Assembly (NCBI RefSeq): GCF_000988165.1
Contig: NW_020169326.1
Location: forward strand, 1 to 49,000
Direction: 5' to 3'
Source of the DNA: Vairimorpha ceranae
Lineage: Eukaryota > Microsporidia > Nosematidae
DNA: 49,000 nt
The translations under genes were made by a program, and so were the position numbers. The stretch's first letter is position 1; each line of letters begins with the position of its first letter. Positions 30,572 to 47,062 of this stretch are shown piece by piece. Below the pieces are notes generated by a model. The model had not been told where the DNA came from. It made no database searches and saw only the letters and a list, made by a program, of their open reading frames with translations.

Positions 30572-31336
30572 TTAATGTAGATAGTGAATAAACCCAACAT
30601 ACTTTCCTTCAAAAAGAGCTGTATCTCCACTAAAATGATAAACGTTTAGAAAGCTATTTTTGATCTTTTCACTACATTCGAAAATAAGATCATCATTTTG
30701 ATTTAAAAAACTATTTAAATCCTCATCACTAATTTTTGGATCATCTTTAATATAAAAACATATTGCCAGTTTAGTAAGAGCCAGTATAGGTTGATCCTCA
30801 TAATGTTTTAATTCATTACATGCATCACGAAATTTTATTAAATTCTTTTTTTTATTAGAAATACTGTCATAAGGATTAATATAAGACCAGTTCCCGTATT
30901 CTTCATGAATTTTAATAGCTGAATTAAGTTTATCAATACATTTCCAGTTATTTTTTCTACAATTAATCATTCTAAATAACATTCTTAAAATTGGCAAATC
31001 TTCTGTTTCTATTAATTTGCCATTTGCTAGAAATATAAATTCAGTGACAAATTTATCAAAAATAACACTTGCAATGTTATGAGCTTTTTTTTTTAAGATT
31101 TTTTTTTCATTATAATCTCCTGTACTAATATATCTTGAAAGGTGGTAAGATTCCCATTTTTTAATTATTTCTCCTTCAATCATATAATCAATAACTTTTG
31201 TCATTTGTAAACCTTCTATGCCTTCATCTAAGTCTAAATCAAACAAATTGAAGTATTTTGATATTTCATTAGAATAAAAAGCAGCTTGTAATTCAAATCC
31301 TAGCACGTTTATGAAAAGAAATGCAATGATTTTCAT
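30572..31336 (-). CDS. Secreted protein family, member 1
   Basis: A 254-residue protein starting with a signal peptide (MKIIAFLFINVLGFELQA) directly followed by AFYSNEISKYFNLFDLDLDEG. Length is identical to the other two members, and the C-terminus (YVGFIHYLH) is nearly the same. The mature part is mostly helical-looking and charged. Cysteines conserved with at least one sister include those in CRKNNWKC, DACNEL and IFECSEK, so disulfides are possible. It has no membrane segment after the signal peptide and no ER-retention tail. Upstream TTACCCC sits seven bases before the ATG. The family is not recognised and appears lineage-specific. A host-directed or spore-surface role is inference from secretion, duplication and repeat-rich surroundings. 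Member 1 is the most divergent of the three. Confidence 0.85.
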   Translation of the reverse strand: MKIIAFLFINVLGFELQAAFYSNEISKYFNLFDLDLDEGIEGLQMTKVIDYMIEGEIIKKWESYHLSRYISTGDYNEKKILKKKAHNIASVIFDKFVTEFIFLANGKLIETEDLPILRMLFRMINCRKNNWKCIDKLNSAIKIHEEYGNWSYINPYDSISNKKKNLIKFRDACNELKHYEDQPILALTKLAICFYIKDDPKISDEDLNSFLNQNDDLIFECSEKIKNSFLNVYHFSGDTALFEGKYVGFIHYLH

Positions 31337-31342
31337 ATAACA

Positions 31343-31346
31343 GGGG
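31343..31346 (-). promoter_or_regulatory. CCC-type motif upstream of secreted family member 1
   Basis: The minus strand reads TTTAAATAACTTTTTACCCC before the ATG at 31336. The identical block up to TTACCC is kept upstream of member 2 and nearly kept upstream of member 3. This conservation in duplicated DNA supports a working promoter. Confidence 0.6.
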
Positions 31347-44279: not shown

Positions 44280-45277
44280 TATCTAATATGCTCCCCTTTA
44301 GTTTTATAAACCGTCACTGATCGCTTTTTAAAACTCATTGCTAATTTTAAACATAATTCTATAGGTATTGAGTGCTAAATTTGTTCAATTTTTTGCTTTT
44401 AATACAGTCTTTGTTTTTAAAAAAAATTAGTTAACTCCTCCTTAATTAAGGCCCATAGAGCCTCGATAGGGTTTAAATCTGGTGATTGTGAAAGCCATAG
44501 CAACAATTTCATGTCTTTTTTTTCAAAATAAACCTTCGAAAGTTTTGAAGTATGCTTGGGATCGTTATCCTGTTAGAAAATAAACTTCTTAAGGCCTATC
44601 CTATGAACAGAGGTAGTCAGGTTAGTTGCAAGAATGTCAGCATATGCAGCAGCATTCATGATTCCATCAATGAATACCAACCTCCATACTCCACAATATG
44701 AGAAACATATTTATATCATGACAGACTCCTCTCTAAATTTAGCTGTTGGTGTTAGGTGCTTCAACTTAAGGCCAATTTCTTGTTATCTCCAGACAAAAAC
44801 CTTACCATCGGAGTTAAACAGATTAAATTTGCTCTTATCAAAAAATATAATGCTTTTTATTTCATTATTTGAGAGACAAAGAAAATCTGCCATTCTCTTG
44901 ATTCTATTCAAATGTTTTTTTTGACAAGAGGGGTTTTTTAATAAGCGAAATTCCCCCAATAGTAGCTTTATTTAGAATGTTTTTCACTCATAAATGCGAT
45001 ATGTCCTACCAGTACTCGGCTTAAACTCAGTAGCTACCTTCCTTAAAGATGGTTTTGGATTTTATTAATTTTCTTAATTGCCTCAAATTCAGGAGTATTA
45101 TAGATTCTCGATGTTCATGATCGTTTTTATTTCCGTATTGCTAGTAATGCGATATTTAGACAGTATCCTAGGCGCTGTGCTTTGATTTATCTTGAGTTTT
45201 TTTGAAATCTGGACTTGTGAGTAATTAAATTTCAACAAGGTAATTATTTTACCTTTTAAGAATTCAGAAAGAGCCAT
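44280..45277 (-). mobile_element. Tc1/mariner-like transposon remnant C (least decayed transposase)
   Basis: The minus strand has an ATG at 45277 and an intact 59-codon frame (to 45098) with the helix-turn-helix YSQVQISKKLKINQSTAPRI. Later, in other frames, come QDNDPKHTSK (about 44540-44575) and WLSQSPDLNPIEALWALIK (about 44440-44500), the catalytic Asp and Glu blocks of Tc1/mariner. The domain order and the roughly 1 kb size are those of a full transposase of about 330 residues. The breaks between blocks show it is inactive. Terminal inverted repeats were not identified. Confidence 0.85.
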
Positions 45278-46297
45278 GCGTAGGGGTTAGATTACTATAA
45301 AAAAATTTTGTGTACAGCTCAAACAAAAAAGTAAGTTTTATTTATCAGTATAACATAAGGTGTAAAACAAAACCAAAAACATTAATTTTAATAAAGTACT
45401 GTTTTACTAAGAAGTATTATTTCTCACAGCTCAGCGTGTATAATATTTTTTTATAAAAACGTTAGACCAAGGTTTTAACCATTAAACACTAATTATTTTA
45501 AATTAGTCTTAGAAAACAATTTTAAATCAAATTAAATTTTTATAAAATTGATGTATTCTCATGGAAGGCAACCGAATTTTAAATGTAATTCTAAAATGAT
45601 ATAAGTAGTAAGCATTCTTTTTTTTAGCACACCACTTGTATTGGCCTTATGCCAATGTTGCTTAAACTCTCATTTAAAAATTAAATAATTTTAAATTCAT
45701 AAGTACCCTTCTTAAGGATTTTATTTATTTAAAATAAACTTTTATCAAACATTTTGGTGTTGAGAAATTTAATGTTTTGTTTAAATTTTATTATAAATTA
45801 TTAAGAAATTACAAACAAATATGGTATGATTCCACAAAAATATATATAAATTATGTTAAAATTCCGTTCCTTTTCAATTTATTTGGAAATAATAATGCGT
45901 TGTTTTTTATTTTTTTCAAAAAAAAAATTATTTATTAAACCGATATTATATTTATAGAAAAAAAAAAATCAAAAAACACTCAATAAAGTTATTTTTAAAT
46001 TGTTCATTTAATAAATTTATTAGAAAAATACTCTATGTTTGGCATCTAACTTAAATGCGCAAATAACTTATTTTAACTTTACAAAAAAGTCAAGTTCGTG
46101 ACATTTTCATTACTGTTATCTACAAAAAGACTGTAAATTGCTTTTTTTGTTTTCAAATTAAATTTCTTATTTTTTCACAATTGTTTTTGTAAAGTCTTTT
46201 CAATTAAATAGATAAACTTTAAATAAGTTAAAAAAAACTGTATTGCATAATAAGCATTAAAATTTATACAGTAAACTAATAAAATTATAAATGTTTT
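45278..46297. repeat. Intergenic region and 3' flank of secreted member 3 (duplicated)
   Basis: From 45890 on, the sequence is nearly the same as 36200-36625 downstream of member 2, differing by scattered substitutions and small indels. The left part has no recognised feature. Confidence 0.7.
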
Positions 46298-47062
46298 TTA
46301 ATGCAGATAATTAATAAACGCAACATACTTTTCATCAAACATAACCATATCTTCACTACAACAACAAGCATCTAGAAAAGCTTCTTTGATCTTTTCACTA
46401 CATTCAAAAATAAGACCATCATCTTGTTGTAAAAAATTATTTAAATCTTCATCAGTAATTTTTGGATTATTTTTAATATAAAAACATATTGCTCGTTTAG
46501 TAAGAGCTAGTACAGATTGACCTTTAAAATTTTCTAATTCATTACATGCATCACGAAATTTAATATAATCCTCTTTCATTATAACTTGATACGTGTAAGG
46601 ACCAAGATAAGGGCATTTATCACAATTTTCATAAATTTCAATTTGTTCATTTAGTGTATCAATACATTCCCAAGTATTTTTTTTATATTTAATGATTCCA
46701 AATAGCATTCTTAAAATTGGCAAATCTTCTATTGTCACTAGCCTGCCATTTACTACAAATATAAGTTCAGTGACGTTTTTTGTAAATGTAACATTTTCAA
46801 TGTTATAAGCTTGTTTCATTAATAATTCTTTTTCAGGATTATTCGGTGTTCTATAATAACTTGAACGCCAGTAAGGCTCTTTCGTTTTGATCATACCTAT
46901 TCCCAACATGAAATCAACAATTTCTTCCATTTTTGAACATTCTATGCCCTCATTTAAATTTAAATCAAATAAATTGATGTATTTTGAGAATACATTAGAA
47001 TAAAAAGCTGCTTGTAGTTTAAATCCTAACACGTTTATAAAAAGAAACGTAATGATTTTCAT
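46298..47062 (-). CDS. Secreted protein family, member 3
   Basis: A 254-residue paralogue of the genes at 30572 and 36626. The frame is open upstream to 47134, but the ATG at 47062 is chosen because it gives a proper signal peptide (MKIITFLFINVLGFKLQA), equal length with the sisters, and a CCC motif at the same distance. Kept blocks include NLFDLNLNEGIECSKM, DLPILRMLFGI, DACNELENF, DEDLNNFLQQDDGLIFECSE and the tail YVAFINYLH. The centre has changed: the DNWDC of member 2 is DKCPYLGPYT here, and a cluster DACCCSED has appeared near residue 230, adding cysteines. It is closest to member 2. Function unknown. Confidence 0.85.
   Translation of the reverse strand: MKIITFLFINVLGFKLQAAFYSNVFSKYINLFDLNLNEGIECSKMEEIVDFMLGIGMIKTKEPYWRSSYYRTPNNPEKELLMKQAYNIENVTFTKNVTELIFVVNGRLVTIEDLPILRMLFGIIKYKKNTWECIDTLNEQIEIYENCDKCPYLGPYTYQVIMKEDYIKFRDACNELENFKGQSVLALTKRAICFYIKNNPKITDEDLNNFLQQDDGLIFECSEKIKEAFLDACCCSEDMVMFDEKYVAFINYLH

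Follow-up and report, generated by a model that had tools for sequence, protein, structure and literature searches.

Host-exposed protein families described in microsporidia carry a signal, have ten or more members and are specific to a clade (PMC5423893). Related parasites offer further points of comparison: 51 of 265 unique genes in Vairimorpha bombi are described as having secretion signals (PMC10989860), and in Vairimorpha necatrix there are expansions of the ricin B lectins and serpins, two kinds of multigene family in Nosematida that are discussed as acting at the host (PMC10759460). Here we describe a family of genes for proteins of 244–256 amino acids, three of which lie in positions 1–49,000 of Vairimorpha ceranae contig NW_020169326.1 (the window, 49,000 nucleotides (nt); contig C42 in our numbering), and argue that it is probably a lineage-specific, host-exposed secreted family growing by tandem duplication.

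The family resembles NemLGF1, NemLGF5 and the 68 families of Reinke et al. 2017, as set out there, in having at least ten members, a predicted N-terminal signal, clade specificity, no known domain and signs of local duplication (PMC5423893). It differs from them in size, with ten members against 18–169 in four Nematocida parisii families (PMC5423893), and in that its host exposure is a prediction. Like the species-unique secreted genes reported for V. bombi, it is lineage-specific with a predicted secretion signal (PMC10989860), and like the ricin B lectins and serpins of Nosematida it is multigene and sits in the same parasite group (PMC10759460).

Results

The window contains three family genes, labelled W30 (30,572–31,336), W36 (36,626–37,390) and W46 (46,298–47,062). 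Each is an intact minus-strand open reading frame (ORF) of 254 codons from ATG to stop with a hydrophobic leader; the one plus-strand frame read at these loci holds many stops. W30 and W36 are identical to database proteins P0006 and P0001, respectively, and W46 differs from P0005 by 2 residues. The original prediction, made from the sequence of the window, had described three 254-residue proteins encoded on one strand with a common signal peptide, tail and several cysteines, and these features were confirmed: a hydrophobic leader, the length, a C-terminal YLH and Cys133, Cys173 and Cys221 are common to the three.

Three members proved to be an undercount. Across the assembly (4,559,957 bases in 116 contigs, for which our search counts are lower bounds) we found at least ten intact family genes on six contigs: three in the window, two each on C51 and C6, and one each on C92, C37 and C62. 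Four queries, each from a different branch of the family, all led to the same ten places. All ten frames are open, with identity to W36 ranging from 77% down to about 25%; six encode exactly 254 amino acids and the others 256, 247, 247 and 244. IFEC is invariant across 12 aligned sequences, and YLH ends six of the ten proteins. The ten members represent about six independent lineages, and a binomial calculation on the upstream CCC signal described below therefore overstates its significance. Two of the defining features of a microsporidian large gene family, at least ten homologous proteins per genome and clade specificity, are present. The third, a signal, which Reinke et al. 2017 define as at least 2-fold enrichment over the genome in predicted signal peptides or transmembrane domains, is probable, and the fourth, occurrence of the protein in a host compartment, is a prediction here.

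The leader was assessed by hydropathy. In all ten members the highest 12-residue Kyte–Doolittle mean within the first 25 residues lies at 1.88–2.80; the comparison set was the eight other window ORFs, five of which score below 0.6 at the N-terminus. Beyond the leader, nine of the ten proteins never exceed 1.4 over any 19 residues, whereas C6a (one of the two C6 copies) reaches 2.22. The family proteins are therefore predicted, from their sequences, to be soluble and secreted, as seems likely; their C-terminal residues, YLH included, are not a known endoplasmic reticulum (ER) retention tail.

Promoter-like signals precede the start codons. CCC lies 7 to 12 nt before the ATG in all ten members, compared with CCC within 25 nt of 45 of 978 ATGs outside long ORFs; among the other long ORFs of the window, three of eight have CCC within 25 nt upstream. 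A TATA-like word stands at −27 or −28 in eight of ten members; the background count above is for CCC alone. The putative core promoters in the window, all on the minus strand, occupy 31,337–31,366 for W30 (TATTTAAA box at −28, CCCC at −10), 37,391–37,420 for W36 (TATTTAAA box at −28, CCC at −10) and 47,063–47,092 for W46 (TATTTAAA box at −27, CCC at −10). In C6a the CCC signal points to an internal ATG, and a start there gives a leader like that of the other members. Encephalitozoon cuniculi and Nosema ceranae are described as having a CCC-like motif directly before the start codon (PMC2803860). When the 112 differences between W36 and W46 were placed at random, as substitutions only, the frame stayed open in 1 of 5,000 simulations. 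The open frames and CCC signals exceed chance.

The original prediction stated that the proteins match no recognizable family, and database, profile and structure searches bore this out. A search of 5.8 billion proteins returned 7 proteins for a single sequence (247 scored candidates) and 8 for a profile (3,764 scored), none of them assigned to a named species; the search requires shared five-residue words, and distant orthologues could be missed. No match was named V. bombi or V. necatrix within that same limit, though the database includes proteins from both species. Two of the eight profile matches are identical to proteins of the assembly and four are 1–5 residues from one; P0003 and P0004 are placed beside W46 in the tree. 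None of 146 pattern matches in GTDB genome contigs was a relative. Pfam gave scattered weak rows for the 12 aligned sequences (best expectation value (E) 0.012, below cut-off) and the PDB, searched by sequence, a single row (E 0.43), all taken as chance. Neither of the two predicted structure models, both mostly helical, had a significant fold match among the Foldseek matches listed (50 of 347 and 50 of 72); the W36 model is of low confidence at residues 1–40 and 61–100. Word searches of open papers found none on the 254-amino-acid family, which does not by itself establish its absence from print. Within the sensitivity of the five-residue word search, the family is clade- or species-specific.

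The expanded families of Nosematida were considered as candidate identities and rejected. A ricin B lectin, with its beta-trefoil lectin domain, is contradicted by the mostly helical models and by the lack of any lectin Pfam row at E ≤ 1 among the 12 sequences. The same 12 sequences gave no serpin row at E ≤ 1, and the proteins have 244–256 residues; a serpin domain has some 370.

The protein sequence appears to evolve fast. Ratios of non-synonymous to synonymous substitution (dN/dS, Nei–Gojobori) are 0.60–1.07 in the six pairs among W30, W36, W46 and C92, and 0.43–1.07 over all 45 pairs. The three window pairs are about as similar in their ORFs as in their flanks (W36/W46: ORF 0.854, flanks 0.848–0.884). 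In the protein alignment the four closest members can be lined up with one another without a gap. Over six pairs compared as DNA, the ORFs had 1 gap and the flanks 45 with one cost setting, against 13 and 57 with another. ORF gaps per pair were 0, 1, 0, 0, 0 and 0 at gap open −10/mismatch −1; 0, 5, 0, 4, 4 and 0 at −8/−2; and 0, 13, 15, 7 and 0 in five pairs at −6/−3, where ORF gaps exceed flank gaps in two. The indel contrast between ORF and flank depends on gap costs; the CCC and dN/dS results are independent of it.

Amino-acid change is concentrated in one segment (alignment columns 151–180, residues about 144–172), which corresponds to 30,821–30,907 in W30, 36,875–36,961 in W36 and 46,547–46,633 in W46, all on the minus strand. 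The proportion of non-synonymous differences (pN) is 0.27–0.42 there, compared with 0.08–0.20 outside it, in each of the six pairs (p 0.0023 to 4e-12; the pairs are non-independent), a pattern compatible with positive selection on the variable segment. Synonymous divergence to C92 is also raised across the middle (columns 121–180) relative to the rest: 0.32 versus 0.10 for W36 (p 0.0035), 0.48 versus 0.16 for W46 (p 0.0003) and 0.42 versus 0.29 for W30 (p 0.20). The three pairs without C92 lack this excess (p 0.40 to 1). The roughly threefold divergence of the C92 middle in two of three pairs suggests that part of C92 was exchanged. In database protein P0004, the P0003 and W46/P0005 types alternate as a three-part mosaic, in which two middle sites break the pattern; these are the two sites where W46 differs from P0005. 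Because P0004 comes from contigs of at most 3,014 bases, it may be an assembly chimera, or it may be a real allele.

The window genes lie within duplicated units that extend into their flanks. The minus-strand units containing W36 (36,218–37,670) and W46 (45,891–47,347) share about 1.45 kilobases (kb) at 85% identity, and the minus-strand unit containing W30 (30,519–31,718) shares about 1.2 kb at 77% with 46,242–47,429. A spacer repeat upstream of W30 and W46 (32,927–33,290 and 47,822–48,186) is 74% identical, and the C6 copies, about 5 kb apart, are 95% identical. Since homology blocks end at different points in different pairs, and spacer and flanks are shared, tandem duplication followed by decay fits better than the movement of one transposon. 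Duplication in gene-poor DNA and fast protein change support the original prediction in part.

Conserved genes are nearly absent from this part of the window, as had also been noted. W30, W36 and W46 are the only ATG-initiated ORFs of at least 100 amino acids in 25,701–49,000, and ORFs of at least 120 amino acids cover 0.10 of the DNA there versus 0.53 in 1–25,700. The earlier label 'transposon-rich' finds modest support. A probable decayed DNA transposon with inverted ends of about 150–180 nt lies between W30 and W36 (34,324–35,761, no strand assigned) and contains a minus-strand helix-turn-helix (HTH)-like fragment (35,352–35,636; HTH_7 E 1e-4, HTH_SB E 0.0027, both below the Pfam cut-off). 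Between W36 and W46 is a probable Tc1/mariner-like HTH fragment (45,101–45,286, minus strand; HTH_SB E 2.5e-4, below the Pfam cut-off). These two probable Tc1/mariner-like remnants, with weak sub-threshold HTH matches, and a few repeats common to other contigs favour the label; a genome-wide HTH_SB search had no match at E ≤ 0.001 and so did not in this way show a transposon family. A separate 1.3-kb repeat (26,180–27,473), possibly an old mobile element, is 68% identical in inverted orientation to C6 positions 4,561–5,910, between the two C6 family copies, and partly matches C51 near 65,000.

The other half of the window (1–25,700) has ordinary genes. Pfam matches identify an ATP/ADP transporter, an M1 aminopeptidase, an ABC transporter and a patatin-like phospholipase, along with proteins of the Sel1-repeat and Rad21/Rec8 types. 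Identity of the aminopeptidase is 77% with V. necatrix, 65% with V. bombi and 56% with Nosema granulosis, which places the DNA in the Vairimorpha/Nosema group and upholds the microsporidian origin assumed in the original prediction; by this one core protein, V. necatrix is the nearest named relative. The window has no tRNA and no Rfam family at the gathering threshold. A 338-amino-acid ORF (15,858–16,874, plus strand), whose N-terminus is fairly hydrophobic and for which Pfam gives nothing over its cut-off, is possibly another secreted orphan. Elsewhere in the assembly, C62 carries, 4.8 kb from its family member, a 398-amino-acid ORF (L040:8491-9687) with a hydrophobic N-terminus and internal repeats of 72–84% DNA identity, and C57 carries a 667-amino-acid open frame (L037:736-2736) with a long charged repeat followed by hydrophobic stretches. 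An inverted 197-bp repeat (48,805–49,000 and 7,244–7,438, 87% identical) reaches the last base of the contig as stored, and W30 and W36 also occur in database contigs of 69,878 bases; the contig may continue past 49,000.

Discussion

We consider it probable that these genes form a lineage-specific, host-exposed secreted family that grows by tandem duplication. Each gene would be transcribed from a compact microsporidian core promoter, and the N-terminal leader would take the protein into the ER for release toward the host. The product would be a secreted, soluble, mostly helical protein of about 230 mature residues, whose conserved helical scaffold may display the variable stretch at residues about 144–172 to host molecules. 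New copies would come from tandem duplication within gene-poor DNA, with later divergence through amino-acid change and perhaps segment exchange. The fast-changing sequence and still-open frames fit, without proving, a role in dealing with the host.

Several observations weigh against this reading. The leader score is a simple hydropathy measure, and three of the eight other window ORFs also reach 1.16, 1.69 and 3.20. Ten members is the lower edge of a large family. Positive selection is not demonstrated, as dN/dS is 0.43–0.95 in 44 of 45 pairs, and in the variable segment the proportion of synonymous differences is itself 0.16–0.43 beside the pN of 0.27–0.42. The similarity of ORF and flank divergence is confined to the window pairs: the 3′ flank is more diverged in C92 pairs (identity 0.72–0.74), and the C6 pair has an ORF better conserved (0.973) than its flanks (0.91–0.93). 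With the W36 model of low confidence in the two regions noted above, the variable stretch as a contact surface is a guess.

Spore-wall or polar-tube structural proteins, secreted for spore building and changing in sequence under weak constraint, should also show this leader and this kind of promoter, and V. bombi is described as encoding five of the seven V. ceranae spore wall proteins plus four that are its own (PMC10989860). We regard this explanation as unlikely: by eye the aligned sequences have no repeat or low-complexity tract, their Pfam rows are scattered and weak, and variation focused on one segment is not specifically expected of such proteins. Another explanation is that these are relaxed, nearly neutral duplicates, young paralogues drifting to loss without a special host role, an account to which dN/dS values of 1.07 (W36/W46) and 0.83 (W36/C92) lend some weight, as does the near-equal divergence of ORFs and flanks in the window pairs. 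Yet all ten frames are open, including copies at 25–48% identity to W36, and the neutral simulation seldom kept a frame; IFEC is invariant, every member keeps its CCC, and dN/dS falls near 0.5 in many of the deeper pairs, with values of up to 0.95 in others and a dS that is frequently close to 1 or higher. Taken together, these points make neutral drift rather improbable.

Dispersed copies, and window copies set in gene-poor DNA with probable decayed transposon pieces between them, might suggest that a transposable element carries the genes or gave rise to them. We judge this very improbable, as pairwise homology blocks have differing ends, the sole listed inverted-repeat pair of at least 40 nt in 28,000–49,000 brackets no family gene, and the Pfam rows of 12 members at E ≤ 1 include no transposase family. 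Some copies also lie near cellular genes: C62 is 1.1 kb from an E2 enzyme ORF, C51b 2.5 kb from a protein kinase ORF, C37 2.6 kb from a WD40 ORF (below cut-off) and C92 3.3 kb from an Arf GTPase ORF. We give almost no credence to the idea that the proteins are secreted and mimic Skp1/BTB adaptors so as to hijack ubiquitin ligases of the host. In its favour are the second model, whose predicted order of elements (two strands, helix, strand, then helices) roughly resembles Skp1 by eye, and DACNELKHY...LALTKQAI, which by eye resembles the last Skp1 helices. No sequence profile supported it: with the family profile, 59 of 500 shuffles scored as high as the genome's own Skp1-like protein and 52 of 500 as high as a human Skp1 fragment, hhalign gave a probability of 0.3% against the genome's own protein, and no Skp1 or BTB Pfam row appeared for 12 members at E ≤ 1. 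Nor was either fold among the best 50 of 347 and 50 of 72 Foldseek matches of the two models, which are only partly confident. The genome's own Skp1-like protein (L034:1447-1881, minus strand, 145 amino acids) matches human Skp1 at E 0.003 but falls short of the Skp1 cut-off in Pfam; a Skp1_POZ/Elongin-C-like protein (L036:1477-1770, plus strand, 98 amino acids) is over the cut-off.

Beyond the secreted, host-exposed family that we favour, a bolder version, which we think doubtful, would be a modular host-contact system built on a conserved helical scaffold, in which gene conversion exchanges the middle third, hypervariable stretch included, among tandem and dispersed copies. The synonymous excess in the C92 middle and the P0004 mosaic are the observations behind it. 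If true, gene conversion would let a tiny genome produce new surface variants, like the antigen families of larger parasites.

This kind of gene family is already known in microsporidia, and the 254-amino-acid family is a new instance of it. Gene numbers in microsporidia are small, and little is known of the molecules through which these parasites act on their hosts; an orphan family of ten genes with clear promoter-like signals, predicted leaders, a conserved scaffold and one variable segment offers a compact target for infection transcriptomics and localisation.

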